A DNA stretch of 64,000 bases, taken from assembly GCA_030657355.1 (NCBI GenBank), contig CP131056.1:3740501-3804500 (forward strand), in the 5' to 3' direction. Of this stretch, positions 8,798 to 21,145 are shown piece after piece; position 1 is the stretch's first letter; every line of letters begins with the position of its first letter. The stretch comes from Radicibacter daui (lineage in GTDB: Bacteria; Pseudomonadota; Alphaproteobacteria; Radicibacterales; Radicibacteraceae). The notes beneath the pieces were generated by a model that was given only the letters and a program-made list of their open reading frames with translations, was not told the origin of the DNA and did not search any database. The position numbers and the translations under genes were made by a program.

Positions 8798-9062
8798 CAA
8801 CCTGTCCTCGCTTGCATGCCACCTTTTGCGCCGCCCCGATGCCGCTTCCAGCCGGCAGCGCTTTCCTACCCTGCTATGTGCTTGCTTTCACGGGCTTTTG
8901 AAGTGCCCTTTTCGCATGGCTGCCCCATGGAGCCTTGCACAATCGTCGGTCGACATTGGGGTTGGATCCTTCTTTGATGAAAGCCATCTGAAGAAGAGAA
9001 TGACAAGCCGGTCCATCTTCCCCGTTCAAGGGCCGGCATCGACAGCCCGGAGGGTCTCACTC

Positions 9063-10688
9063 GTGACGGACACTGCCCAACTGACTTCGCTCTTCCCGCT
9101 GGAAAGCGAGATTCCCGCCGAACACCGGCTTGCCGGCGAGATCGACCAGCGCGTAACGCTGGTGAGCGGCGAGTTGAAGAAATGGGAGGGCCCGGTACAG
9201 GCTGTGGTCTCCCCCGTGCATATCCGCACCGCCGACGGCAGCCTCAAGGCGCTGAAGCTCGGCAGCGTGCCGACCGGCGGCATTCCAGAAGCAGAAGAGG
9301 CGCTGGACGCCGCCGTTGCCGCCTATGACAGCGGCCGTGGTGTATGGCCGACCATGACGGTCGCCGAGCGCATTGCCTGCATGCAGACCTTCACCAAGGA
9401 AATGGTGGCCCGCCGCACCGAGATCGTGCGCCTCATCATGTGGGAAATCGCCAAGAGCCTGCCGGATTCGGAAAAGGAATTCGACCGTACCGTCGACTAC
9501 ATCCGCGCCACCATCGACGCGCTGCGCGATCTCGACAACAGCGCCTCGCGCTTCACCATCGTGGAAGGCACCATCGGCCAGATCCGCCGCACGCCGCTTG
9601 GCGTGGTGCTGTGCATGGGCCCCTATAACTATCCGCTCAACGAAACCTTCGCGACGCTGATCCCGGCACTCTTGATGGGCAACACGCTGGTCTTCAAGCC
9701 GCCGCGTTTCGGCTCGCTCTTGTTTTACCCGCTGCTGGAAGCCTTCCGCGCCGCCTTCCCGAAGGGCGTCATCAACACCGTCTACGGCAAGGGTTCGGAA
9801 ATCGTCCCCTACATGCTGGAAAGCGGCAAGGTGAATGCCCTGACGCTGATCGGCTCCAGCAAGGTCGCCGACCATCTCAAGAAGCTGCACCCCAAGACCA
9901 ACCGCCTGCGTGCCATCCTCGGCCTCGATGCCAAGAACGCCGCCATCGTGCTGGCGGATGCCGACATCGAGCTGGCGGTCAAGGAGTGCATCACCGGTTC
10001 GCTGTCCTTCAACGGCCAGCGCTGCACCGCGCTCAAGATGCTGCTGGTGCACAAGTCGGTCGCCGACCAGTTCACCAAGCGCTACGTGGAAGAACTGGCC
10101 AAGCTCAAGATCGGCATGCCGTGGGACAAGGGCGTTGCCATCACCCCGCTGCCCTCGGGCAAGGCGGAATACATGGCCGAGCTGGTGGAGGACGCCAGGT
10201 CCAAGGGCGCGAAGGTCATCAACCCCGATGGCGGCGTGGCGAGCGCCAGCCTCTTCTACCCGGCGGTGCTCTATCCGGTCGCCGAGGGCATGAAGATCTA
10301 TCGCGAGGAGCAGTTCGGCCCGGTGGTCCCCGTCGTCCCGTTCGAGGATGTGGAAACCGCGCTCGAATATGTCATCACCTCCGAGCATGGCCAGCAGGTC
10401 TCGATCTTCTCGTCGAGCCCGGACGATATCGGCCATCTGGTCGACCCGCTGGTCAACCAGGTCTGCCGCGTCAACATCAACTGCCAGTGCCAGCGCGGGC
10501 CGGACGTGTTCCCCTTCACCGGCCGCAAGGATTCGGCGGAAGGTACGCTGTCGGTCAGCGACGCGCTGCGTTCCTTCTCCATCCGCTCGATGATTGCCGC
10601 CAAGCAGACCGATGCCAGCAAGAAGCTGCTGGACGACATCGTGCGCGGCAACAAGTCCAACTTTATCAACACCAACTTCATCTTCTGA
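9063..10688 (+). CDS. NADP-dependent aldehyde dehydrogenase, GapN-like
   Basis: Aldehyde dehydrogenase superfamily enzyme of the non-phosphorylating glyceraldehyde-3-phosphate dehydrogenase (GapN) type. It would oxidise an aldehyde to the acid with NADP+. Visible motifs are RRTPLGVVLCMGPYNYP (cofactor-domain entry), GSSKVADHL, the general-base region LGLDAKNAAIVL, and the catalytic Cys in SFNGQRCTALK. FTGRKDSAEGTLSV lies near the C-terminus. I chose the GTG at 9063 because GGAGGG lies about 8 nt before it, giving 541 residues; an ATG at 9000 is the main alternative. It sits between polyamine genes, so it may instead oxidise an aminobutyraldehyde intermediate; sequence alone favours GapN. Confidence 0.85.
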   Translation: MTDTAQLTSLFPLESEIPAEHRLAGEIDQRVTLVSGELKKWEGPVQAVVSPVHIRTADGSLKALKLGSVPTGGIPEAEEALDAAVAAYDSGRGVWPTMTVAERIACMQTFTKEMVARRTEIVRLIMWEIAKSLPDSEKEFDRTVDYIRATIDALRDLDNSASRFTIVEGTIGQIRRTPLGVVLCMGPYNYPLNETFATLIPALLMGNTLVFKPPRFGSLLFYPLLEAFRAAFPKGVINTVYGKGSEIVPYMLESGKVNALTLIGSSKVADHLKKLHPKTNRLRAILGLDAKNAAIVLADADIELAVKECITGSLSFNGQRCTALKMLLVHKSVADQFTKRYVEELAKLKIGMPWDKGVAITPLPSGKAEYMAELVEDARSKGAKVINPDGGVASASLFYPAVLYPVAEGMKIYREEQFGPVVPVVPFEDVETALEYVITSEHGQQVSIFSSSPDDIGHLVDPLVNQVCRVNINCQCQRGPDVFPFTGRKDSAEGTLSVSDALRSFSIRSMIAAKQTDASKKLLDDIVRGNKSNFINTNFIF

Positions 10689-10709
10689 AGACGGGTTGAT
10701 CGCTCGAAA

Positions 10710-10852
10710 GTGCCTCCCCCACCTTATGTGGGGGAGGTGCCGCGCAGCGGCGGAGGGGGTGTTGCCGGTGCGTCCGGGCAGCGTAAGCGCCTGCTTCACC
10801 GTCCACACCCTCATCCGGCGCTGCGCGCCACCTTCTCCACAAGTGGAGAAGG
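10710..10852. repeat. RIME-like palindromic intergenic mosaic element, copy 1
   Basis: Two related half-elements lie in inverted orientation. The first (10713-10760) contains a hairpin with arms CCTCCCCCAC/GTGGGGGAGG and a GCCGCGCAGCGGC core. The second (10807-10852) contains the related GGCGCTGCGCGCC core and a hairpin CCTTCTCCAC/GTGGAGAAGG. The reverse complement of one half aligns with the other along its whole length. Such elements are typical of rhizobial intergenic regions (RIME type). It fills the gap between two convergent genes and probably also ends their transcripts. Confidence 0.75.
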
Positions 10853-10861
10853 ATATTTTCT

Positions 10862-12238
10862 TCACATCGCGCCGATGCCCCGGGCGGTATCGTCCAGCAC
10901 GTGGCGGATCTTCTCTTCCAGCTCGGCGATGTTGTCATGGCTGAAGGTCAGCGGCGGGGCGAGGATCATGGTGTCGCCTACTGCGCGCATCACCAGATTG
11001 TTGAGGAAGCAGATATCGCGGCACAGCGTGCCGACCTTGCCGTCGCCCGGGTAACGCTCACGCGTCTTTTTGTTCCGGACGATTTCAAGCGCGGCCACCA
11101 GCCCGTCGCTGCGCACCTCGCCGACGATCGGATGATCGGCGAACTGCTGCAGCATGCGGCCGAGCGCCGGGCCGGTATCGTTTCTCACCTGCTCCACCAG
11201 CCCCTCGCGGCGGATGATGTCGAGGTTTTCCAGCGCCACGGCACAGGCCACCGGATGACCGGAATAGGTGTAGCCGTGATAGAACTCGCCGCCCTTTTCC
11301 ATGATCTCGGAAACCACCCGCTCGCCCACCAGCACGGCGGATAGCGGCAGGTAACCCGAGGTGATGCCCTTGGCGACCGTCATCAGGTCCGGCGTAAAGC
11401 CGAAGCGCTGGCTGCCGAACCAGTGGCCGGTGCGGCCAAAGCCGGTGATGACCTCGTCCGCCACCAGCAGCACATCATATTTGCGGCAGATGCGCTCCAC
11501 TTCCGGCCAGTAGGTCTCCGGCGGGATGCGCACGCCGCCCGCACCCATGATCGGCTCGCCGATCACCGCGGCCACCTTGTCCGCGCCCAGCTCCAGAATG
11601 CGCTCCTCAATGGCGCGCGCGGCGCGCAAACCGAACTCCTCCTGGCTTTCCCCCTCCAGCGCCTCGCCATACCAGTAGGGTGGCATGACGTGGGAGAAGC
11701 CCGGCAGGGTAATGCCGATCTGCTTGTGCACAGCGGACATGCCGCCCATCGAGGCCGAGGCGATGGTGGAGCCGTGATAGGCATCCTTGCGCGCGATGAT
11801 GATGTTGCGCTCCGGCTGACCCTTCAGCTTCCAGTAATGGCGCACGAGACGAATGACGGTGTCGTTCGATTCAGAACCGGAAGAGGCATAGAAGACGTTG
11901 CTGATGCCTTTGGGCGCGAGATCCACAAGCTGCTTGGCGAGCTCGACGGGCGGCACCGTCGCCGATTTGAAGAAGCTGTTATAGTAGGGCAGCTCCATCA
12001 TCTGCCGGGCGGCGGCATCCGCCAGCTCCTTGCGGCCGTAACCGACATTGACGCACCAGAGCCCGGCCATGCCGTCGAGGATCTTGTGACCCGCAGCGTC
12101 CCACACATGCACGCCGTCGGCGCGGGTGATGAGGCGCGCACCCTTTTCGCGCAGCGCCTTGTGGTCGGTGAAGGGATGCAGATAGTGCGCATTGTCGAGC
12201 GCCACGAGGGCCTCGGCACCGGGATAAGCCATCTTCAT
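10862..12238 (-). CDS. spuC: Putrescine-pyruvate aminotransferase (class III)
   Basis: PLP-dependent class III aminotransferase of 458 residues that would move the amino group of putrescine (or another omega-amine) to pyruvate, giving 4-aminobutanal. Features: YLHPFTDHKALREKG near the N-terminus and GLWCVNVGYGRKEL, both typical of the SpuC group. SSGSESNDTVIRL and DAYHGST bind phosphate and PLP, DEVITGFGRTG holds the PLP-pyridine Asp, and the Schiff-base Lys is in MTVAKGITSGYLPLSA near residue 285. The surrounding PotFGHI, PuuA-like and PuuB-like genes support putrescine. Related omega-transaminases with the same motifs use other amines, so the exact substrate is inferred. Confidence 0.9.
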   Translation of the reverse strand: MKMAYPGAEALVALDNAHYLHPFTDHKALREKGARLITRADGVHVWDAAGHKILDGMAGLWCVNVGYGRKELADAAARQMMELPYYNSFFKSATVPPVELAKQLVDLAPKGISNVFYASSGSESNDTVIRLVRHYWKLKGQPERNIIIARKDAYHGSTIASASMGGMSAVHKQIGITLPGFSHVMPPYWYGEALEGESQEEFGLRAARAIEERILELGADKVAAVIGEPIMGAGGVRIPPETYWPEVERICRKYDVLLVADEVITGFGRTGHWFGSQRFGFTPDLMTVAKGITSGYLPLSAVLVGERVVSEIMEKGGEFYHGYTYSGHPVACAVALENLDIIRREGLVEQVRNDTGPALGRMLQQFADHPIVGEVRSDGLVAALEIVRNKKTRERYPGDGKVGTLCRDICFLNNLVMRAVGDTMILAPPLTFSHDNIAELEEKIRHVLDDTARGIGAM

Positions 12239-12576
12239 GAAGGTAAAGCTCCGCCTGTTCGGGATTTTTTATCGGGTAGTGCTCAGCCGATCCCGATCAA
12301 AGGCGGGTTGAAGCCGATGCGGGCGCACATCAGCAACAGATCTTCACGCCGGGTTCTGAGACGTGTGTAGCGGTCCATGCCGGAAAGCCTAGCCGAGGAG
12401 ACCGGCCACCAGCAAGCCACCACCGGCGCTCCGGCAGGTGAGGCGATTTTCCAAAGGATTAGCTAACCTTCGGGGGCAGGGAAGAGAGGCCGCTTTTATG
12501 CAAGAATGCCCCCTCACGCCCTCACCGCAGAAAGGGCGCCTGCACGCTGGCAGGAACCGCCCGGAAACGCGACACG
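12239..12576. other. Intergenic region upstream of spuC and of the Cache-like genes
   Basis: This 338-bp region lies between divergent genes, so it should carry the spuC promoter (minus) and the promoter of the first Cache-like gene (plus). The T-rich GGGATTTTTTATC at 12261-12273 and GATTAGCTAACC near 12459 stand out. A related GGTTAGCTATCC occurs upstream of the second Cache-like gene near 13221. A minus-strand frame of 31 codons (12283-12378) is described separately. Confidence 0.45.
12283..12378 (-). CDS. Possible 31-residue leader peptide upstream of spuC
   Basis: A small frame beginning MDRYTRLRTRREDLLL and ending PPLIGIG lies upstream of spuC on the same strand. Its N-terminal half is strongly basic and it contains a Cys. 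I see no clear ribosome-binding site before the ATG, so it may be chance. It is listed because short basic peptides in front of amine-catabolic genes can act as leaders. Function unknown. Confidence 0.25.
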   Translation of the reverse strand: MDRYTRLRTRREDLLLMCARIGFNPPLIGIG

Positions 12577-13182
12577 ATGAGACACCCCCTCCCAACAGTG
12601 CTTCTGGCCTCGGCCCTTGCATCGGCAAGTCTGCCGGCGCTGCATTCCGCCGCCGCAGCACAGCAGAACAAGTATGACACCGTTATCCGTGCCTTTGCCG
12701 AAAACACGGTGCGGCAATGGATTGCCGACCCCCGTATCATCGCTGCCCTGCGCGAACAGAATGCCCATAACCGCCACATCACCCGGATGGCAATCGACAC
12801 GCTGGATGCACAATGGCGCGCCGAACTGACCTCCACCAGCCATCCCCTTATCGATACCGTGCTCGCCAAGCCGGCCTCCCGCCTGCTGCTTGCCGATGAA
12901 AAAACGACCGACGGGCTGGTCACCGAAATCATTCTCATGGATGAACACGGCCTCAATGTCGCGCAAAGCGACGTCACCACCGACTACTGGCAGGGGGACG
13001 AAGCCAAATGGCAGAAGAGCTTCGGTGCCGGCGCCGGGGCGATTTTCATCGACCGGCCGGAGCGCGATGAATCGACCCAGACCTTCCAGTCCCAGCTCAG
13101 CATGACCGTCAGCGATCCGGATACCGGCAGGGCCATCGGCGCCATTACCGTCGGCATCAGCATCGAGAGGATGCAACCCTGA
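12577..13182 (+). CDS. Secreted Cache/PDC-like sensor protein, paralogue 1
   Basis: A 201-residue exported protein with a Sec signal peptide (MRHPLPTVLLASALASAS, cleavage near AAA|AQQ). The mature domain has the look of a PDC/Cache ligand-binding fold: a long N-terminal helix (YDTVIRAFAENTVRQWI), then EIILMDEHGLNVAQSDVTT, DYWQGDEAKWQKSF and a final strand GAITVGISI. There is no membrane anchor or signalling domain, so it would be a free periplasmic ligand-binding unit. Its C-terminal half is nearly identical to the next gene, showing tandem duplication. The fold assignment is by motif, not by search. Confidence 0.75.
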   Translation: MRHPLPTVLLASALASASLPALHSAAAAQQNKYDTVIRAFAENTVRQWIADPRIIAALREQNAHNRHITRMAIDTLDAQWRAELTSTSHPLIDTVLAKPASRLLLADEKTTDGLVTEIILMDEHGLNVAQSDVTTDYWQGDEAKWQKSFGAGAGAIFIDRPERDESTQTFQSQLSMTVSDPDTGRAIGAITVGISIERMQP

Positions 13183-13335
13183 AAATCGATACTACCCAAA
13201 GGAGGTTCTGCATCCCAAAGGGTTAGCTATCCGATCGCCAGCGCGATTATCCCTTCATGTTATGGCAATAACAAAACCACGAGATGCCCTCGCCGGCCGA
13301 GGGCTACCGCCAACGACATATTAGGGAAGCGCCCC

Positions 13336-13935
13336 ATGAAGTCCCCCTGCCCCCGCGCCACTCTTCTGGCTGTTGCCTGCGCCGCAGGCCTCACCCTGCT
13401 GGTCGGCACCCCGGCCATCGCCGACAACGCCTATGAAGCGCCGATGCGCGAGTTTGCGGAAAAGACCGTAAAGCAGTGGGTCAGCGATCCTGCGGTTATC
13501 GAGGCGATCAATGCCCAGAATGCGAAGAACGCCGGCCTGACCCAGGCGGATGTCGATGCGCTCGACAAGAAGTGGCGCGCGGAAGTAACGGCGGCCAGCC
13601 ACCCGATGATCGACGGCGTGCTGGGCACGGCGGTCTCCAAAAAGCTGGCGGATGCCGAGCAGGCGGCCGGCGGGCTGGTCACCGAGATTTTCATTATGGA
13701 TGACAAGGGCCTCAACGTCGCCCAGAGCGAAATCACCTCCGACTACTGGCAGGGTGATGAAGCCAAGTGGCAGAAGACCTACAGCGTCGGGCCCGATGCC
13801 ATCTTCATCGACGATGTCGAGCAGGACGAGTCCACGCAGACCTTCCAGTCGCAGCTCAGCATGACCATCAGCGACCCTGCGACCGGCAAGGCCATCGGTG
13901 CCATCACCGTGGGCATCAATGTCGACAAGCTGTGA
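13336..13935 (+). CDS. Secreted Cache/PDC-like sensor protein, paralogue 2
   Basis: A 199-residue paralogue of the preceding gene. It has a signal peptide (TLLAVACAAGLTLLVGTPAIA) and the same blocks: MREFAEKTVKQWV, EIFIMDDKGLNVAQSE, DYWQGDEAKWQK, ESTQTFQSQLSMT and GAITVGINV. Differences cluster in the middle (about residues 60-110) and in FIDDVEQDE versus FIDRPERDE, as expected if the copies bind different ligands. An AGGGAAG site precedes the ATG. It ends 95 nt before a chemoreceptor gene on the same strand. A periplasmic co-sensor for that receptor is the natural inference; this is not shown by sequence. Confidence 0.78.
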   Translation: MKSPCPRATLLAVACAAGLTLLVGTPAIADNAYEAPMREFAEKTVKQWVSDPAVIEAINAQNAKNAGLTQADVDALDKKWRAEVTAASHPMIDGVLGTAVSKKLADAEQAAGGLVTEIFIMDDKGLNVAQSEITSDYWQGDEAKWQKTYSVGPDAIFIDDVEQDESTQTFQSQLSMTISDPATGKAIGAITVGINVDKL

Positions 13936-14030
13936 GTTTTAGCTGACAGGGCGGGCCATGCTTCGGGCCCGGCCTGCCCTCCAGCCTGGACACAACCCGT
14001 CCCGCTGTTCCCGAGCGACGGAGAACCGAT

Positions 14031-15686
14031 ATGACGACCGCTTCGAAGAGCGGCGCCGCCGCGCCGCGCCTGACCGTTACCCGCAAACTCGCCCTTCTCG
14101 TCACCCTGGCCATCACCCTGTGCCTTGCGGCGACGGTTGCGGTCTCCACCTTCAGCGCCCGCAAGGCGTTGACGGAAGACGGGCGCTCGTCCTTTGTCGA
14201 CCTCGCCACCCTGCTGGCCGGCAACGTCGCCGGCGGGTTGAAGTGGAACAAGGTGGACGCGGTGGAGGGCGCCTATTCCACCATGGTGCAGGCGCCGGGC
14301 TCGCTGGTTGCCAGCCTCATGACCTTCAACAAGGCCGGCGAAAAGGTAACGCAGTATGATGCGCCCAATCTCCCGCATGTCGACCTGTCGCAGGCCGTTT
14401 CCTGGCGCAGCAGCGCGGGGAGCGGGGTCTATGTCCGGCAGGTTGGCGACCACATCATCACGGTCGTACCGGCGGGCGTGGACAAGGATGGCAGCCCGAT
14501 AGGCACGCTTGCCATCGGCTGGAGCCTTTCGCGGGTTGAAAGCAAGGTGACCGACGCTGCTATCGGCCAGGGGCTGACGGCGTTGATCGCCGGCGCCATC
14601 CTCATCCTTGTCCTCATCCTGGCCGCCCGCGCCATGGTCGGCCGCCCGCTGGAACAGCTTTGTTCGGTCATGCGGCACCTTGCCGAAGGCAATCACGACG
14701 TAAGCGTGCCCGCGACCACCAAACGCGATGACATCGGCGCCATGGCCCGCGCGGTTGAGGTCTTCAAGCTCAATGCCGTCGAGATGGAGCGGATGCGCGC
14801 GCAGCAGCAGCAGGCCGCCGAAACCGCAGAGATCGACAAGCGCCGCGCCATGACGGAACTGGCCGACAGTTTCGAGCGGCGCGTTCGCTCCGTGGTCAAT
14901 GGCGTTTCCGCCGCCGCTACCCAGATGCAGAGTGTTGCCCGCTCGATGTCGGACGTCGCCGACCGAACGAGCCAGCAGGCCCAGCGTGCCGATGAAGCCG
15001 CCCAGGGCGCCGCCGGCAATGTCGCCTCCGTCAGCCACGCAACGGACGAACTTGGCTCGTCACGCGACAAGATTACCCAGCATGTCACCCGCTCGGTCGA
15101 GATCGTGCGTACCGCAGCCCGCCAGGCGCTCAGCACCAACGAACAGGTAAGCGGTCTTGTCTCTGCATCCGAGCGTGTGGGCGAGGTGGTGAAGCTCATC
15201 AACGATATTGCCGACCAGACCAATCTGCTGGCCCTCAACGCTACCATCGAGGCGGCGCGTGCCGGTGAAGCCGGCAAGGGTTTTGCGGTGGTGGCGCAGG
15301 AGGTCAAAAGCCTCGCCACCCAGACGGCCCGCGCCACCGAAGAGATCGCCCAGCAGATCGGCAGCATTCAGCAGGCGACCGGCGAGGCCGCCAGCGCCAT
15401 CCGCGAGATTGCCACCACCATCGATGAGGTGCGGCGCCTGTCGGACGCTGTCGGCACGGCGGTGGATGAGCAGGGACGGGTTGCCCACACCATTTCCGGC
15501 AATGCCCGCGCGGCTGCCGGCGGGGCAGACAGCGTTTCCGCTGCCATCGCCGATGTGACGAACGGAGCCCGCCAGACCGGCAAATCCTCGCAGGAAGTGC
15601 TGGGTGCAGCAGCCGAGCTTGCCCGCCAGGCTGAAACCCTGCGCGACGAGGTGGATGCTTTCCTCGGCCAGGTGCGCGGCGCCTGA
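14031..15686 (+). CDS. Methyl-accepting chemotaxis protein
   Basis: A 551-residue transmembrane chemoreceptor. TM1 is near residues 20-42 ([19 protein letters not shown]) and a compact periplasmic domain spans about 43-178. TM2 is near 180-200 ([18 protein letters not shown]), followed by HAMP at about 200-255 ([16 protein letters not shown]). A long coiled-coil signalling domain has the hairpin tip [18 protein letters not shown] and [19 protein letters not shown]. The periplasmic part is too short for a double Cache domain. There is no CheB/CheR pentapeptide at the C-terminus. No che or motility gene is in the window. It is downstream of the two secreted Cache-like genes. Confidence 0.92.
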
Positions 15687-15716
15687 CCGACCGCTCCTTG
15701 CCTTACCGCCAGAAAG

Positions 15717-15748
15717 AAAAAGCCCGGAGGATGCCCTCCGGGCTTTTT
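15717..15748. terminator. Bidirectional rho-independent terminator
   Basis: A perfect 10-bp stem (15721-15730 with 15735-15744), loop ATGC, is flanked by AAAA on the left and TTTT on the right. It therefore terminates both the chemoreceptor transcript (plus) and the convergent puuA transcript (minus). Confidence 0.93.
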
Positions 15749-15771
15749 CTGTCTTCAGGCACTACGCCCTC

Positions 15772-17118
15772 TCAGACATTGAGCAGCAGGTTCTCCCGCT
15801 CCCAGGCCGAGATCACGGAGTTGTAGAGCCAGTATTCCTCTTCCTTCACCACTTCGACCGCCTCGCAGAAACGCTCGCCGAGGATTTCACGCAGCGGGCG
15901 GGCGCTGTGGAAGCGGGCCAGCGATTCCTGCAGCGTCTGCGGCAGGCGGTGCGCCAGCTTGTAGGCCGACCCGGTGATGGGGTCGGACGGCTCCAGCTTC
16001 TGCTGGATGCCAAGCCAGCCGCAGGCAAGCGTTGCCGCCAGCGCCAGATAGGGGTTTGCGTCGGCGCCCGGGATGCGGTTTTCCACCCGGCGGGCGGCCG
16101 GGCTGCTGTCCGGCACGCGGAAGCTGGTGGTGCGGTTGTCACGGCCCCAATGCACATTGATGGGCGCATCGGCATGCGGCACCAGGCGCTTGTAGGAATT
16201 GACGTTGGGCGCCACCAGCGGCATGGCGGCAGGCATGAATTTCTGCAGGCCGCCGACGAAATATTTCAGGAGGTCGCTGTCCGAGCCATCGGGATTGGCA
16301 AAGACATTGCGGCCGGTCTCGATATCCAGCACCGACTGGTGGATGTGCATGGCGCTGCCAGGCTGATACTGCATCGGCTTGGCCATGAAGGTGGCATAGA
16401 TGTTCTTGCGCAGCGCGGCCTGACGCACCGTGCGCTTGAAGATGAACACCTGGTCGGCAAGGTCGAGCGCCTTGCCGTGGTTGAAGTTGATCTCGATCTG
16501 CCCGGCGCCGGCCTCATGGGTCAGCGTGTCGATATCGAGGCCCTGCGCATCGCAATAGTCGTAGATATCCTCGCAGACCGGGTCGAACTCGTTGACCGCG
16601 TCGATACCATAGGCCTGCCGGCCGCTTTCCTCGCGGCCATTGAGGCCGACGGCGGGACGCAGCGGATAGTCGGGGTCCTTGTTGATGGCAACGAGGAAAA
16701 ATTCCAGCTCCGGTGCCACGATGGGCATCCAGCCTTTTTCCTCATAAAGCTTCAGCACGCGGCGCAGCACGTAACGGGCGGAAATATCCACCGGCGCGCC
16801 ATCATGCTCCACCAGGTCGCATACCACCTGGCAGGTCGGCTCCTTGTACCAGGGCACCATGAACACGGCATTTTCATCGGGTTCCATGACGATATCGCCC
16901 GCAGCCGCGTCGATAATTCCTTCGTCATGCTCGGCAAAGCGCCCGGTAACCATCTGCACGCAGACGGCTTCGGGCAGGCGCAGGCCGCGCCCCTCAAAGG
17001 TCTGGATAAATTTGGTGGCGGGCAAAATCTTGCCGCGCGGAATGCCGGACATATCCGGCACAAGACACTCAACCTCGGTAATACGGTTCTCGCGGATGAA
17101 ATTCTGGAGGCGAGACAT
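15772..17118 (-). CDS. puuA: Gamma-glutamylputrescine synthetase (glutamine synthetase family)
   Basis: ATP-dependent ligase of the glutamine synthetase fold, 448 residues. It is probably PuuA, which joins glutamate to putrescine. Visible are VECLVPDMSGIPRGK near residue 17, the metal-site block EAGAGQIEINFNHG, the ATP/metal segment PGSAMHIHQSVLD, PNVNSYKRLVPHADAP, and SPAARRVENRIPGADANPY. The length and the absence of the adenylylation-site motif separate it from housekeeping GlnA. The ATG at 17116-17118 (MSRLQNFIREN) matches the usual family start. PuuB-like and putrescine uptake genes nearby support the putrescine role; other gamma-glutamyl-amine ligases look alike. Confidence 0.87.
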   Translation of the reverse strand: MSRLQNFIRENRITEVECLVPDMSGIPRGKILPATKFIQTFEGRGLRLPEAVCVQMVTGRFAEHDEGIIDAAAGDIVMEPDENAVFMVPWYKEPTCQVVCDLVEHDGAPVDISARYVLRRVLKLYEEKGWMPIVAPELEFFLVAINKDPDYPLRPAVGLNGREESGRQAYGIDAVNEFDPVCEDIYDYCDAQGLDIDTLTHEAGAGQIEINFNHGKALDLADQVFIFKRTVRQAALRKNIYATFMAKPMQYQPGSAMHIHQSVLDIETGRNVFANPDGSDSDLLKYFVGGLQKFMPAAMPLVAPNVNSYKRLVPHADAPINVHWGRDNRTTSFRVPDSSPAARRVENRIPGADANPYLALAATLACGWLGIQQKLEPSDPITGSAYKLAHRLPQTLQESLARFHSARPLREILGERFCEAVEVVKEEEYWLYNSVISAWERENLLLNV

Positions 17119-17459
17119 GAAACCCTGCTGCGGTTGCCAACGATGCCTCAAGACTACGCTGCCGCCCCCGCGGCGGTCCATCCGTTATCCGGTTTTATGT
17201 CATGCGCGCTTTCGGAAACCGGTATCCGAAAGTGAACCGGCTTCAATTTGCCTAAAAAGTAAGCGCTATGCGTTCGCGCATGGGAGCCATGCGAAGATGT
17301 GTCTTTTATTAAGGCACCTCGGACGGCACATTCGGGTTGTCCCATTTACATGGGCGTTTCCTCCCTAGACTTGGGCCGCGATCTACTGGTCGCGGCCTCT
17401 TTTCTTTTCTGGGGCAGGCTTCCCGAAAACCGAGCTTTTCCGCCAATTTCGGCCGCCCG
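17119..17459. other. Intergenic region with puuA promoter and a candidate sRNA
   Basis: This 341-bp stretch lies between puuA and the citrate-synthase-like gene, both on the minus strand. The left part must hold the puuA promoter. The right part has two hairpins, a pyrimidine-rich linker and a strong plus-strand terminator, although no plus-strand protein gene precedes it; see the sRNA entry. No convincing protein frame is present. Confidence 0.6.
17315..17410 (+). ncRNA. Candidate trans-acting sRNA with anti-Shine-Dalgarno linker
   Basis: Three elements follow in order on the plus strand. Hairpin CCCAT-TTAC-ATGGG spans 17341-17354. A single-stranded linker containing TTTCCTCCC (about 17358-17366) is complementary to ribosome-binding sites. 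A rho-independent terminator follows, with arms GGCCGCGA (17374-17381) and TCGCGGCC (17390-17397) and then TCTTTTCTTTT. A TTTATTAA near 17306 could be a -10 box, putting the 5' end near 17315-17320. This resembles the AbcR (alpha-r15) family that represses ABC-transporter mRNAs in rhizobia. The family call is tentative; the 5' end is a guess. Confidence 0.5.
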
Positions 17460-18671
17460 TCAATCCCGTGGCGCCGGCCCGCGATAACGTGCGCGCGGCC
17501 TGATGAGTCCCCCTTCGGCATATTGCTCCAGCGCATGCGCGCTCCAGCCTGCCATGCGCCCCAGCGCAAACAGGATGACGGGCGCTTCCTCCGGCAATCC
17601 CAGCGCCGTGGACAGCAGGCAAAGCGCCATGTCGAGCGAGGGCTTGGCCCCGGTCATATGCTCGCTCGCCCCGGCAATCCGCAGCATCTGCGGCCAGCGC
17701 TCCAGCTTTGCGCGGCCGGCCAGGCGGGCAATGGCAAACCAGCGTGGATCGCCCGCCGGATAAAGCGGATGGCCAAAGCCCGGCAGTTCCTCCCCGCGCT
17801 TCACCCGCGCCGCCATCGGCACCCGCGGATCGGTGGCCGCCAGCCACTCCGGCAGGCATGCCATGATGCGCCCGGTCATGCCGCCATGGCGGGGCCCCTG
17901 CAGGGCGGCGAACCCCGCCGTCAGCGCCGCCGCCAGCGGCGCGCCGGTCGCCGCCACCACGCGCACGGCAAAGGCGGAGGCGTTAAGCTCATGATCCGCG
18001 CTTAGAACCAGCGCCGCCCGCAGCAGCTCTTCATCCCGCCCTTCAAGCCCCCAGGCCATCGCCAGTTGCCGGTGCAGCGGCTCCGCCCCCGGCGGGCGCC
18101 GTGTGTCGGTCATGATCGCCGCCGCCCAGCGCATCAGGCGAGCGGCCGTGCGCATGACCGGCACCGGGGCCGTGTTGGCCGCCGCCAGTTCCTCCCCCGC
18201 CGCCAGCGCCAGCAGCGACTGGCACCGCTCCAGCGGACTGAGGCCGGCAGTGGCGGCGCGCGCGCCGGCAAGAGCGCTGCCCGTCGGCACGGCAGCCGCA
18301 AAAGGATCGTTCGCCCCGCTGGCCTCCGCTTGCCAGAGCAGCCGCGCCACCTCTTCCAGCGAGGCCCGCTCGGCCAGCCGGGCGGCATCATGGCCACGGT
18401 AATAGAGCCTGCCGTCCTGAATGGCGGTGAGCGCACTGTCCAACACCGGCTCGCCCCAGCTGAAACCGCTGGCGGAGCGCTCCTCCCGCGCGGCGCCCTG
18501 CGTGCGCGCCAGCAGCGCTTCCACATCGCCAGCCAGATACCAGCGCCGCCGGCTGGCATCGCGGGCATGAGAGAGGATGAGGCCGCGGCTCACATAGGCA
18601 TAAAGGCTGGCGACACTTACCCCCAGCCGGTCCGCCGCCTCCTTCGCCGTCAGATAAAGCTCGTTTGCCAT
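17460..18671 (-). CDS. Citrate-synthase-family protein fused to an N-terminal DNA-binding domain
   Basis: A 403-residue protein. Residues 1-55 form a MerR/excisionase-type helix-turn-helix (YLTAKEAADRLGVSVASLYAYVSRG). The rest is citrate synthase-like and keeps the three catalytic positions: His in SADHELNASAF (about 265), His in PGFGHPLYP (about 315) and Asp in KPSLDMALC (about 355). It could make citrate or methylcitrate from oxaloacetate and an acyl-CoA. The fusion suggests the enzyme fold is used as a metabolite-responsive regulator, or that the enzyme autoregulates. Similar HTH-citrate synthases are known in proteobacteria, generally uncharacterised. A methyltransferase is divergent across a 124-bp promoter region. 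Confidence 0.83.
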   Translation of the reverse strand: MANELYLTAKEAADRLGVSVASLYAYVSRGLILSHARDASRRRWYLAGDVEALLARTQGAAREERSASGFSWGEPVLDSALTAIQDGRLYYRGHDAARLAERASLEEVARLLWQAEASGANDPFAAAVPTGSALAGARAATAGLSPLERCQSLLALAAGEELAAANTAPVPVMRTAARLMRWAAAIMTDTRRPPGAEPLHRQLAMAWGLEGRDEELLRAALVLSADHELNASAFAVRVVAATGAPLAAALTAGFAALQGPRHGGMTGRIMACLPEWLAATDPRVPMAARVKRGEELPGFGHPLYPAGDPRWFAIARLAGRAKLERWPQMLRIAGASEHMTGAKPSLDMALCLLSTALGLPEEAPVILFALGRMAGWSAHALEQYAEGGLIRPRARYRGPAPRD

Positions 18672-18795
18672 CGCCGCCCTTTCCCCGGCCTTGTTTGCCG
18701 GAAAGCTTCAACTTGATTGTTATTATCATGATTGATCAATGTTGATGACAAGCGCCTGCTTCCTTCCGCGATCCCCGTTGATGGAGGAGAAGAAA

Positions 18796-19647
18796 ATGAG
18801 CGCCCTTTCCGCAGAACCCGATCTGCTGTCGCTCCAACGCCCGGGCCCGGAAGCACCCAAGCCGGTGATGCTGAACGGCACCGAGGCCGCCTTCGGCAAG
18901 ACGGCCAGCGACTACGGCAAACACCGCGCCGGCTTCCCGCCCGCTTTCTTTGACAGGCTTGCCGCCAGCGGGCTCGTCCGCCCCGGCGAGCGGGCGCTCG
19001 ATATCGGCACCGGTACCGGCACGGTGGCACGCGGCCTTGCCAGACTGGGGCTTGATGTGACCGGCATGGACCCGGCGGAGCCACTGCTGGCCGAAGCCCG
19101 CCGCCTCAGCCGCGAGGCACATCTGGCCGTCGGTTATCTGGCCGGCAAGGCGGAGGCGACGGGGCTTGCCGCCGGCGGCTTCGACCTCATCACCGCCGGC
19201 CAGTGCTGGCACTGGTTCGACCGGCCTGCTGCGGCTGCGGAGATGGCCCGGCTGCTGAAACCCGGCGGGCGCCTGATCATTTGCCATTTCGACTGGCTGC
19301 CGCTGCCCGGCAATGTGGTGGCGGCAACGGAAGCGCTGATCCGCACCCATAACCCGGACTGGAACATGGGCGGCGGGGCCGGCATCTATCCGCGCTGGTT
19401 TGCCGATCTTTCAGGCGCCGGCTTCAGCGGTTTGGAGAGTGCCAGCTTCGATATCGGCCAGCCCTACACCCATGAGGCCTGGCGAGGGCGCATCCGCGCA
19501 TCGGCCGGCATCAGCGCCAGCCTGCCGCCGCAAACGGTGGAAGCCTTTGACCGGGAGCATGGCGAGATGCTGGCACGGGATTTCCCGGCCGACCCGCTGA
19601 TCGTCCCGCACCGGGTGTGGTGGGTGAGCGGGGTGAAGGCTGAGTGA
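18796..19647 (+). CDS. Class I SAM-dependent methyltransferase
   Basis: A 283-residue methyltransferase of the Rossmann-fold class I type, UbiE/Methyltransf_11-like. Motif I is ALDIGTGTGTVARGL near residue 70, motif II LDVTGMDPAEPLLAEA, then FDLITAGQCWHWFD and LKPGGRLIICHFDW (motif III). The start is the ATG at 18796, 7 nt after a GGAGGAG site; further in-frame ATGs upstream lack one. The substrate is unknown. It is transcribed away from the HTH-citrate synthase and ends just before a RIME-like repeat that probably terminates it. Confidence 0.83.
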   Translation: MSALSAEPDLLSLQRPGPEAPKPVMLNGTEAAFGKTASDYGKHRAGFPPAFFDRLAASGLVRPGERALDIGTGTGTVARGLARLGLDVTGMDPAEPLLAEARRLSREAHLAVGYLAGKAEATGLAAGGFDLITAGQCWHWFDRPAAAAEMARLLKPGGRLIICHFDWLPLPGNVVAATEALIRTHNPDWNMGGGAGIYPRWFADLSGAGFSGLESASFDIGQPYTHEAWRGRIRASAGISASLPPQTVEAFDREHGEMLARDFPADPLIVPHRVWWVSGVKAE

Positions 19648-19666
19648 GGCCGATGGCAGGCCGCTC

Positions 19667-19795
19667 CTCATTACCCCCACCCGGCCTGCGGCCGACCTCC
19701 CCATGAATGGGGAGGTTTTATCTCACCATATCAGAACCTTATCCTTCCCCATTCATGGGGAAGGTGCCCCCGAAGGGGCGGATGGGGGTAATGAG
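19667..19795. repeat. RIME-like element, copy 2, with perfect terminal inverted repeats
   Basis: A 129-bp element bounded by a perfect 13-bp inverted repeat (CTCATTACCCCCA at 19667-19679 and its complement at 19783-19795). Inside are two hairpins, CCTCCCCAT-ATGGGGAGG and CCTTCCCCAT-ATGGGGAAGG, in opposite halves, plus short GGCCTGCGGCC and GCCCCCGAAGGGGC cores. Its half-sites align with those of copy 1 near 10.7 kb. It sits between convergent genes. Confidence 0.8.
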
Positions 19796-19815
19796 TCGAC
19801 CCCGACACCAGCCCC

Positions 19816-21099
19816 TCAAAGCATATCCCGCAGCCGGTACCACAACATCGCCAGCACCAGCGTCGGCGTCCGCAGCGGGCCGCCGGGGAACGGGCGGTGC
19901 GGAATGCGGGCGAACACGTCAAACCGTTCTGCCGTGCCGGCAATGGCCTCCGCCATCAGCCGGCCGGCAAGGCCGGTCAGCGCCACGCCATGGCCGGAGA
20001 AGCCCTGCGCAAAGAAGGTGTTGGGGCCTAGGCGGCCCAGATGCGGCAGCCGGTTCATCGAGATATCGACATAACCGCCCCAGCAATGCTCGATCTCCAG
20101 ATCATCGAGCTGCGGGAAATAATGCAGCATGGTGCGGCGCATGGCCTGCCTGAGCCCCGGCGCATCCATGCCGGAATAACTCACCCGCCCGCCGAACAGC
20201 ATGCGGTTATCCGGCGACAGGCGATAATAATTGAGCACGAAGTTGATGTCCGCCACCGCCATGCGGTCCCTGATCAGCTTCTCGGCCCGCTCCGCCGCCA
20301 TCGGCGTGGTGGAGACGATATAGGTGCCGACCGGCATGATGCGGGAGGCCATCTGCGGCACCTGGCGGAACAGCGCATTGCCGCCCAGCACCATATATTT
20401 GCCGCGCACCGTGCCGCGATCCGTCACCGCGGCCGGGCTGGCCCCGGTCTCGACGCGGGTAACTTCCGTCTGTTCATAGATGCGCACACCCGCCGCCAGC
20501 GCCGCGCGGGCAAGGCCGAGGCAGTAGTTGAGCGGATGGATCTGGCCGGCGGTGGGATCATACATGCCGGAGGTGTAGCGCTCGCTCTCCACCCAGCTGC
20601 CAATCTCCAGCTTGTCGAGATAACGCACGCCGGTAGCGCCATAGGCGTGCAGCTCTTCCTCATGCTCGCGCAGGGCGCGGTCATGCCGGGCCTTCACGCC
20701 GGCCAGCAGATAACCCCAGCGCAGGTCGCAATCGATGGCGTAACGCTCGACATTGTCGCGAACGATGCCCTTGGCCTCTTCGGCCATTTCCCACAGCGAC
20801 ATCGCCATGTCATGGCCGAACCAGCGTACCAGCGTGCCCATCTCGGGATTGTAGCCGGAGCAGATCTGCCCGCCATTGCGTCCGGAAGCGCCGTTGCCCA
20901 CGCGGTCGCCTTCCAGCACCACGCAGGAATAACCGCGCGCCGTCAGCTCCAGCGCGGTGGTGAGGCCGGTAAAACCGCCGCCCAGGATCACGACATCGCA
21001 GCTCATATCCCCGTCAAGGGGCGGCAACTCGGGAAAGTCTGTCGCGGTCGTCTGGTACCAGGAGGGGGCTTTGGCGAGCGTGGAAATACCGTCTTTCAA
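19816..21099 (-). CDS. puuB: Gamma-glutamylputrescine oxidoreductase (FAD-dependent)
   Basis: FAD-dependent amine oxidase of the DAO family, 427 residues. It probably oxidises gamma-glutamylputrescine to gamma-glutamylaminobutanal. The N-terminus has the PuuB-like SWYQTTATDFPELPPLDGD. The dinucleotide motif DVVILGGGFTGLTTALELT is followed by VVLEGDRVGNGASGRNGG (flavin site), and GGYVDISMNRLPHLGRL plus QGFSGHGVALTGLAG are near the C-terminus. I chose TTG at 21099 because AGGAGG lies 7 nt before it; a GTG at 21117 would overlap that ribosome site. The puuA-like gene lies about 2.7 kb downstream, so they are not one operon. It is convergent with the methyltransferase. Confidence 0.87.
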   Translation of the reverse strand: MKDGISTLAKAPSWYQTTATDFPELPPLDGDMSCDVVILGGGFTGLTTALELTARGYSCVVLEGDRVGNGASGRNGGQICSGYNPEMGTLVRWFGHDMAMSLWEMAEEAKGIVRDNVERYAIDCDLRWGYLLAGVKARHDRALREHEEELHAYGATGVRYLDKLEIGSWVESERYTSGMYDPTAGQIHPLNYCLGLARAALAAGVRIYEQTEVTRVETGASPAAVTDRGTVRGKYMVLGGNALFRQVPQMASRIMPVGTYIVSTTPMAAERAEKLIRDRMAVADINFVLNYYRLSPDNRMLFGGRVSYSGMDAPGLRQAMRRTMLHYFPQLDDLEIEHCWGGYVDISMNRLPHLGRLGPNTFFAQGFSGHGVALTGLAGRLMAEAIAGTAERFDVFARIPHRPFPGGPLRTPTLVLAMLWYRLRDML

Positions 21100-21145
21100 G
21101 AAAGCGCCTCCTGGCACCGGATCATCTGGCTAGGGGGAGTGCGGA

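Follow-up and report, generated by a model that had tools for sequence, protein, structure and literature searches.

A winged helix-turn-helix protein with a citrate synthase fold and a conserved upstream element in Radicibacter daui and its relatives: a putative metabolite-responsive regulator

RESULTS

A citrate synthase domain preceded by a MerR-like helix-turn-helix

The window, the whole 64,000-nucleotide stretch of Radicibacter daui DNA that was analyzed, contains a gene for a protein, here termed HTH-CS, in which a winged helix-turn-helix (HTH) precedes a citrate synthase (CS) domain (Table 1). This arrangement, proposed in a preliminary description made from the sequence alone, was borne out by Pfam scores above cut-off (MerR PF00376, 36.0 bits versus 28.2, residues 8 to 45; HTH_17, 30.8 bits versus 27, residues 6 to 55; Citrate_synt PF00285, 199.3 bits versus 27, residues 72 to 393) and by an AlphaFold2 model with a mean pLDDT of 91.1, which comprised a winged HTH, a predicted helix at residues 47 to 68, which may correspond to the antiparallel coiled-coil dimer helix of MerR proteins, and then the CS fold; residues 62 to 75 had pLDDT values below 50. 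The closest PDB structures to the whole model were methylcitrate and citrate synthases, namely, PrpC (Foldseek E value, 8.0e-16) and type II citrate synthases. The HTH alone resembled SoxR, CarH, and other MerR-type proteins, with a Foldseek E value of 0.003 at best and no structure below 0.001; its top Z score, against SoxR, was a middling 8.1 (rmsd, 3.0; 64 aligned residues), and the HTH profile had no match among PDB sequences at an E value of 0.01. Among curated NCBIfam models, the nearest was PRK12350 (NF009005), a citrate synthase model, at 167.9 bits where 332 are required, and for none of the 21 models matched did HTH-CS reach the curated cut-off.

The gene that faces HTH-CS across a short intergenic region was confirmed by Pfam to encode a methyltransferase, in agreement with the earlier annotation. 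Its likelier start, judged by eye, is the ATG at 18796, which follows GGAGGAG, so that the intergenic region is 18672 to 18795, as previously described; the alternative start at 18739 (302 amino acids) would overlap the operator. Assignment as a trans-aconitate methyltransferase, appealing because of the link to citrate, was not adopted, as no such model or structure matched.

Genes for an aldehyde dehydrogenase, a class III aminotransferase, a glutamine-synthetase-like protein, and an FAD-dependent oxidoreductase lie around HTH-CS and the methyltransferase gene (8826 to 21117), and this neighborhood, assessed by eye, suggests putrescine use; the glutamine-synthetase-like gene matched a gamma-glutamylputrescine synthetase model below its cut-off. 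Between that gene and the 3' end of HTH-CS is an mmgR/suhB small RNA with a terminator-like hairpin at 17373 to 17398.

Table 1. Features of the HTH-CS locus in the window
Feature	Coordinates	Strand	Description or basis
HTH-CS gene	17460..18671	-	403 aa, ATG start; MerR/HTH_17 winged helix and citrate synthase fold
Winged helix-turn-helix, codons 6-55	18507..18656	-	Pfam, conservation, fold
Citrate synthase domain, codons 72-393, with H227, H262, H301, R310, D347, R372, R391	17493..18458	-	Pfam, alignment, fold
Candidate operator TTGATCAATCATGATAATAACAATCAAGTTGA (HTH-CS sense)	18708..18739	-	Matrix built without the window
Operator half-site TTGATCAA	18732..18739	-	
Operator half-site ATGAT	18725..18729	-	
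Operator half-site ATCAA	18713..18717	-	
Predicted sigma-70-like promoter TTGTCA-18-GATAAT, toward HTH-CS	18722..18751	-	Consensus match only
Class I SAM-dependent methyltransferase gene, divergent	18796..19647	+	283 aa; Methyltransf_11 (Pfam)
mmgR/suhB small RNA (RF00519)	17332..17413	+	50.2 bits (gathering threshold, 41)

Distribution of HTH-CS and its divergent partner genes

A total of 73 of 385 genomes of the same class matched HTH-CS at an E value of 1e-20, and according to the match table, 41 of these matches began at query residue 12 or earlier and so included the HTH; a forty-second HTH-containing relative (genome G147) had its start on a different contig. At least 594 relatives were found in GTDB genomes with two peptide patterns, and because one of the patterns is located in the CS domain, not all of these relatives necessarily bear the HTH. 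The best 80 were retained, all of which matched from query residue 7 or earlier. Among these best 80 of at least 594, the labels included Alpha-, Beta-, and Gammaproteobacteria and Calidithermus, together with metagenome-assembled genomes (MAGs) labeled Acidobacteria groups, Chloroflexota/Anaerolineae, Actinobacteria, and Eremiobacteraeota; the labels of the nonproteobacterial records are unsure because most of them are MAGs. With 30 class-level loci, they made up a set of 110 loci, numbered with the prefix L and including the window as L007, which are not independent, since only 106 of the 109 tree rows were different and some of L037 to L116 are near-copies of class-level loci. The recognition helix LYAYVSR was near-invariant, with L23, Y24, Y26, S28, and R29 kept in 109 of 110 alignment rows, the single exception being a row without that region.

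Across the 110 loci, the usual divergent partner was a second citrate synthase, prpB, or CoA-transferase gene and not a methyltransferase gene: citB was the partner in 57 loci, a CoA-transferase III gene in 25, and prpB in 15. Minor partners were a GltA-like gene (1 locus), a citrate:proton symporter gene, citMHS (1 locus), a threonine-dehydratase-like gene with citB beyond it (L060 and L070), and a methyltransferase gene (the window and L026 of G147, the latter completed by L172); no partner was recognized in 7 loci. Before manual curation, the counts were 57 for citB, 13 plus 12 for CoA-transferase, 13 for prpB, 2 for GltA-like, 1 for citMHS, and 12 without a partner; L081 and L084 were assigned to prpB by hand because long open frames had hidden the gene order. 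In 14 of the 15 prpB loci, prpC lay behind prpB (L078 was cut), 13 of the 15 were labeled Xanthomonadales/Lysobacterales, and the prpB-partnered proteins made up one side of a supported branch in the tree of 109 rows. The six partner labels needed at least six changes on this tree, the theoretical minimum being five.

The partner CoA-transferases, mostly from Burkholderiales, were about 475 amino acids long, with one or two Pfam stretches (for example, L073, 2496 to 3929, minus strand, and L079, 2436 to 3848, minus strand; 23 more loci). All 20 aligned CitB partners had Glu in an invariant column (E299, within NVEF) that we take to be the position of the catalytic Asp, which contrasts with the status of Caulobacter CitB as a working citrate synthase.

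A conserved element upstream of HTH-CS

Comparison of the regions upstream of HTH-CS in the 30 class-level loci, one of which (L026) is cut at a contig end, yielded a common element of about 30 bp, (G/A)TCAAT(C/A)TTGATT-N5-AATCAATA in gene sense, in which TTGAT and ATCAA half-sites are inverted about 11 bp apart and an extra ATCAA/GTCAA half-site lies about 7 bp from the inverted pair. This candidate operator was found upstream of HTH-CS in 91 of the 110 loci, selected by a threshold of at least 12 of 16 consensus positions; a held-out matrix and a search from the DNA side were added to this selection and make the pairing of operator and gene less circular. The held-out matrix, built from 22 class-level sites, was applied to 80 loci that had not been preselected, covering both strands of each locus over its full length (at most about 9 kb). 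In 75 of these 80 loci, the top match lay within 200 nt on the upstream side of HTH-CS; some of the 80 closely duplicate training loci, but those from Beta- and Gammaproteobacteria do not. Scores were at least 19 bits in 73 of the 75 and below 16 bits in two (L056, 8.7; L057, 15.3), and the highest matches away from an HTH-CS start scored 19.4 bits (L070) and 13.3 bits (L048). The five loci without a match in place were L051, which has a version of the operator with a 4-nt spacer, L060, L068, L069, and L070. Among the eight nonproteobacterial loci, the operator was clear in two (L062 and L105) and weak in three (L054, L056, and L057), and no match was in place in three (L051, L060, and L070).

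From the DNA side, the exact operator core was present in 28 of 299 genomes of the phylum, at one site per genome, and the reversed pattern was present in none; 2 of the 28 genomes (G065 and G182; sites L142 and L144) had supplied loci for motif derivation. Directly before an HTH-CS start lay 23 of the 28 sites, and the partners there were citB (19), prpB (2), CoA-transferase (1), or none recognized (1). The five sites without HTH-CS were L159, L162, L163, L164, which is within an ORF-filled stretch, and L168. The operator accompanied all three large partner groups (48 citB, 23 CoA-transferase, and 15 prpB loci). A MerR-type spacer of 19 to 20 bp was looked for around it in the citB loci, where several spacings scored alike: among 48 loci, matches to the -10 hexamer at 4 or more of 6 positions toward citB were found with a spacer of 20 in 18, 15 in 13, 18 in 10, and 19 in 4.

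The preliminary description had suggested a trigger enzyme that could report metabolite levels directly to DNA, which is partly supported. Direct reporting to DNA gains strong support, as far as sequence comparison goes, from the conserved HTH-CS-linked operator, which in the window falls within the intergenic region that had been named; the trigger-enzyme part is treated as a possibility (see below).

Active-site residues and the Caulobacter paralogues

The expected catalytic His-His-Asp was found in the alignment as H262, H301, and D347. H227, H262, R310, R372, and R391 were kept in all 110 rows, D347 was kept in 109, and H301 was kept in 106; these seven are presumably active-site and oxaloacetate-binding residues. 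Gln replaces H301 in L019, L032, L069, and L096, and in L096, where HTH-CS lies beside the citrate transporter gene, His also replaces D347; the operator is kept in L019 and L096 and absent in L032 and L069. Such replacements suggest that some family members can do without catalysis, and the near-invariance of the catalytic residues elsewhere would fit an active enzyme too.

According to the available text of PMC7083601, Caulobacter crescentus CitB, but not CitC, complements an Escherichia coli gltA mutant; by locus number, CitC and CitB (CCNA_03758 and CCNA_03757) are adjoining citrate synthase paralogues, with 32% and 30% identity, respectively, to the GltA-type enzyme. The terms helix-turn-helix and MerR are absent from the main text of that paper as available, which gives CitC no regulatory role (PMC7083601). 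In a Caulobacter MAG, three PF00285 loci were found, namely, the GltA-type enzyme, citB, and an HTH-CS gene divergent from citB with the operator (L100); identity to the GltA-type enzyme was 29.7% for citB and 32.1% for HTH-CS (over 196 residues only). By elimination among these three loci, and because the identities match the published ones, CitC is probably the HTH-CS protein of Caulobacter. Radicibacter daui differs in that the partner is a methyltransferase gene and citB was not found.

We consider it less likely than not that HTH-CS is a bifunctional trigger enzyme, which would make citrate or 2-methylcitrate and also bind DNA, with turnover altering binding. The retention of active-site residues in 106 to 110 of the 110 rows and the proximity of the fold to PrpC and the type II citrate synthases agree with this, but the operator persists in two loci with replaced residues (L019 and L096) among the four with Gln for H301, one of which also has His for D347; HTH-CS scores below the cut-off of every NCBIfam model that it matched; and a CitB enzyme already adjoins it in 57 of 110 loci. 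If CitC is indeed HTH-CS, the reported failure to complement gltA also argues against a trigger enzyme (PMC7083601, available text).

The operator and the methyltransferase partner in Radicibacter daui

Scored with a matrix from which the window was excluded, the window operator reached 28.75 bits, compared with 3.83 bits for the next nonoverlapping match in the 64 kb and a maximum of 11.45 bits when the 124-nt intergenic region was shuffled 2,000 times by mononucleotide. For the family it is weak, with only 2 of 91 training sites scoring lower and ATGAT as the middle half-site, and the window genome, one of the 299 searched, had no match to the stricter exact core. A loosened core, fitted to the window site, found that site as its sole zero-mismatch match in 5.06 Mb, with 0 for the reversed control; with two mismatches, it found 21 sites versus 0 for the reversed control. 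For 19 of the 20 other sites a 3-kb locus was available, and no CS, prpB, CoA-transferase, citMHS, or methyltransferase relative was present in any of the 19; the 20 sites were treated as chance, although the difference of 21 versus 0 is not fully explained in this way and may reflect the composition of the half-sites themselves. Spacers of 36 nt and 56 nt separate the operator from the start codons of HTH-CS and the methyltransferase gene, respectively. The predicted promoter had 10 of 12 consensus matches (1 found versus 0.2 expected) and was the sole promoter-like site in 17250 to 18900; because its second hexamer is inside the operator, autorepression is expected.

No citB orthologue was found in the window genome, in which the nearest protein was 37% identical, PrpC-like, and encoded beside a prpB-like gene. 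Six Pfam matches fell in five CS-fold ORFs of this genome: two strong ones, GltA-like (69% identical to the L028 partner) and the PrpC-like one, HTH-CS itself, and two short ones that lie close to CoA-transferase-like genes (assigned partly by eye). The short ORFs (L004, 1399 to 2241, minus strand, 280 amino acids; L005, 1195 to 2193, plus strand, 332 amino acids) are perhaps citryl-CoA-lyase-like, as judged by eye. In a genome of another family (L172), a methyltransferase gene whose product was 60% identical and an HTH-CS start were arranged divergently around a 46.4-bit operator. Apart from L172, none of the other 109 loci as first fetched contained a relative of the window methyltransferase, and no HTH-CS was found within the flanks retrieved in 15 of 17 genomes with a methyltransferase relative, one of which (L186) had a weak 13.4-bit operator match.

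These features bear on whether the system is decaying in the window genome, with citB lost, the operator degenerate, and the methyltransferase gene adjoining by accident. The missing citB orthologue, the low operator score, and the long branch of the window protein (0.96 in the tree of 109 rows) would be expected under decay, but the reading frame, HTH, and catalytic residues of HTH-CS are intact and the same gene pair recurs with a strong operator in L172, so we regard decay as unlikely.

DISCUSSION

HTH-CS is most probably a dedicated, autoregulated transcription factor in which the CS active site senses oxaloacetate and acyl-CoA or (methyl)citrate. As judged by sequence comparison, its HTH and CS domains are complete, its recognition helix is near-invariant, and a specific operator lies upstream in most relatives; this operator appears to be common to HTH-CS and the divergent gene, which in most loci is predicted to serve (methyl)citrate synthesis, 2-methylisocitrate cleavage, or acyl-CoA transfer. 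Known citrate synthases are dimeric and undergo an open-closed movement upon substrate binding. In an HTH-CS dimer, the two winged helices would contact the TTGAT and ATCAA half-sites, which are spaced by roughly one turn of the double helix. The intact active site would be occupied by oxaloacetate and acyl-CoA, or by the product (methyl)citrate, and this ligand would move the CS domain from one of its two states, open or closed, to the other and alter HTH binding in the manner of a switch. HTH-CS would repress its own promoter, whose predicted -10 hexamer is covered by the operator in the window, and would also control the divergent gene; in the window genome, where citB is missing, this control may have passed to the methyltransferase. 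On account of the partner genes, the candidate ligands are oxaloacetate with acetyl- or propionyl-CoA, citrate, and 2-methylcitrate.

On balance, we also lean, by a small degree, toward the broader view that these proteins constitute a widespread and unrecognized class of CS-derived sensors, in which the intact active site would read oxaloacetate plus acetyl- or propionyl-CoA, or the product, the dimer would read one dedicated operator, and the controlled gene would have been swapped among citB, prpBC, and CoA-transferase, citrate transporter, and methyltransferase genes, with the protein and its operator retained. The methyltransferase found here would possibly act on a citrate-related acid or a tricarboxylic acid (TCA) cycle enzyme.

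It is quite improbable that the element is instead a site for another regulator, a promoter, or an RNA feature and that HTH-CS is merely one of its targets. The element overlaps the predicted promoter in the window, but the exact core occurs once per genome in 28 genomes and at HTH-CS in 23 of them while the partners change (citB, CoA-transferase, and prpB), and the spaced half-sites suit an HTH dimer. Least probable is an ordinary accessory citrate or methylcitrate synthase whose HTH is a relic or serves nontranscriptional purposes (partner contacts or localization), for although the active-site residues are intact, HTH residues 8 to 31 are more conserved than the CS domain (mean column identity, 0.77 versus 0.57 in the 110-row alignment) and the pairing of the operator with the gene holds in searches from either side.

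As a regulator, HTH-CS would share with the MerR family (SoxR, CarH, and BmrR) an N-terminal winged HTH, a long next helix, and a separate C-terminal sensor, the difference being that in HTH-CS a complete citrate synthase fold would serve as the sensor. In the MocR, GabR, and PdxR regulators, an HTH is fused to an entire aminotransferase fold that is now a sensor; HTH-CS likewise joins an HTH to an entire enzyme fold, whereas the enzyme fold, HTH family, and pathway differ. To our knowledge, no enzyme-fold regulator with a citrate synthase fold has been described, and none was found among the matches listed for the open-access literature, most subscription journals being outside that scope. 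PRK12350 is the curated model nearest to the CS domain, and the Mycobacterium tuberculosis CitA structures are among the solved ones closest to it; both differ from HTH-CS, whose HTH lies outside the matched regions.

The regulators of prp genes (Fis/sigma-54 type, GntR type, and mycobacterial PrpR) resemble HTH-CS in adjoining prpB-prpC; going by the descriptions in the available texts, they are unrelated proteins, and 2-methylcitrate or propionyl-CoA is the reported or proposed ligand for several of them (PMC9765439, PMC12153269). All Xanthomonadales analyzed in PMC9765439 use a Fis-family PrpR, according to the text available, and the PrpR site in Xanthomonas citri, GTTGCAA-N2-TTGCAAC, is unlike the HTH-CS operator (PMC12153269, available text). 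Because of this Fis-family PrpR with a different site, HTH-CS would act alongside such a regulator or in its place at the prpB loci. X. citri PrpR itself, a prpB repressor encoded by an adjacent gene, was considered as a possible HTH-CS protein and rejected on the grounds of that different site and of its likening by the authors to Salmonella PrpR (PMC12153269, available text).

Proteins of the HTH-CS type are easily mistaken for surplus citrate synthases. Should they prove to be regulators, it would be wrong to read them as redundancy in the TCA cycle, and the complementation failure of Caulobacter CitC would be explained. Many Proteobacteria would then have a local regulator of citrate and propionate metabolism that is undescribed in the open-access papers searched, and this regulator would provide a sensor of central-carbon metabolites whose operator, about 30 bp long, is defined.
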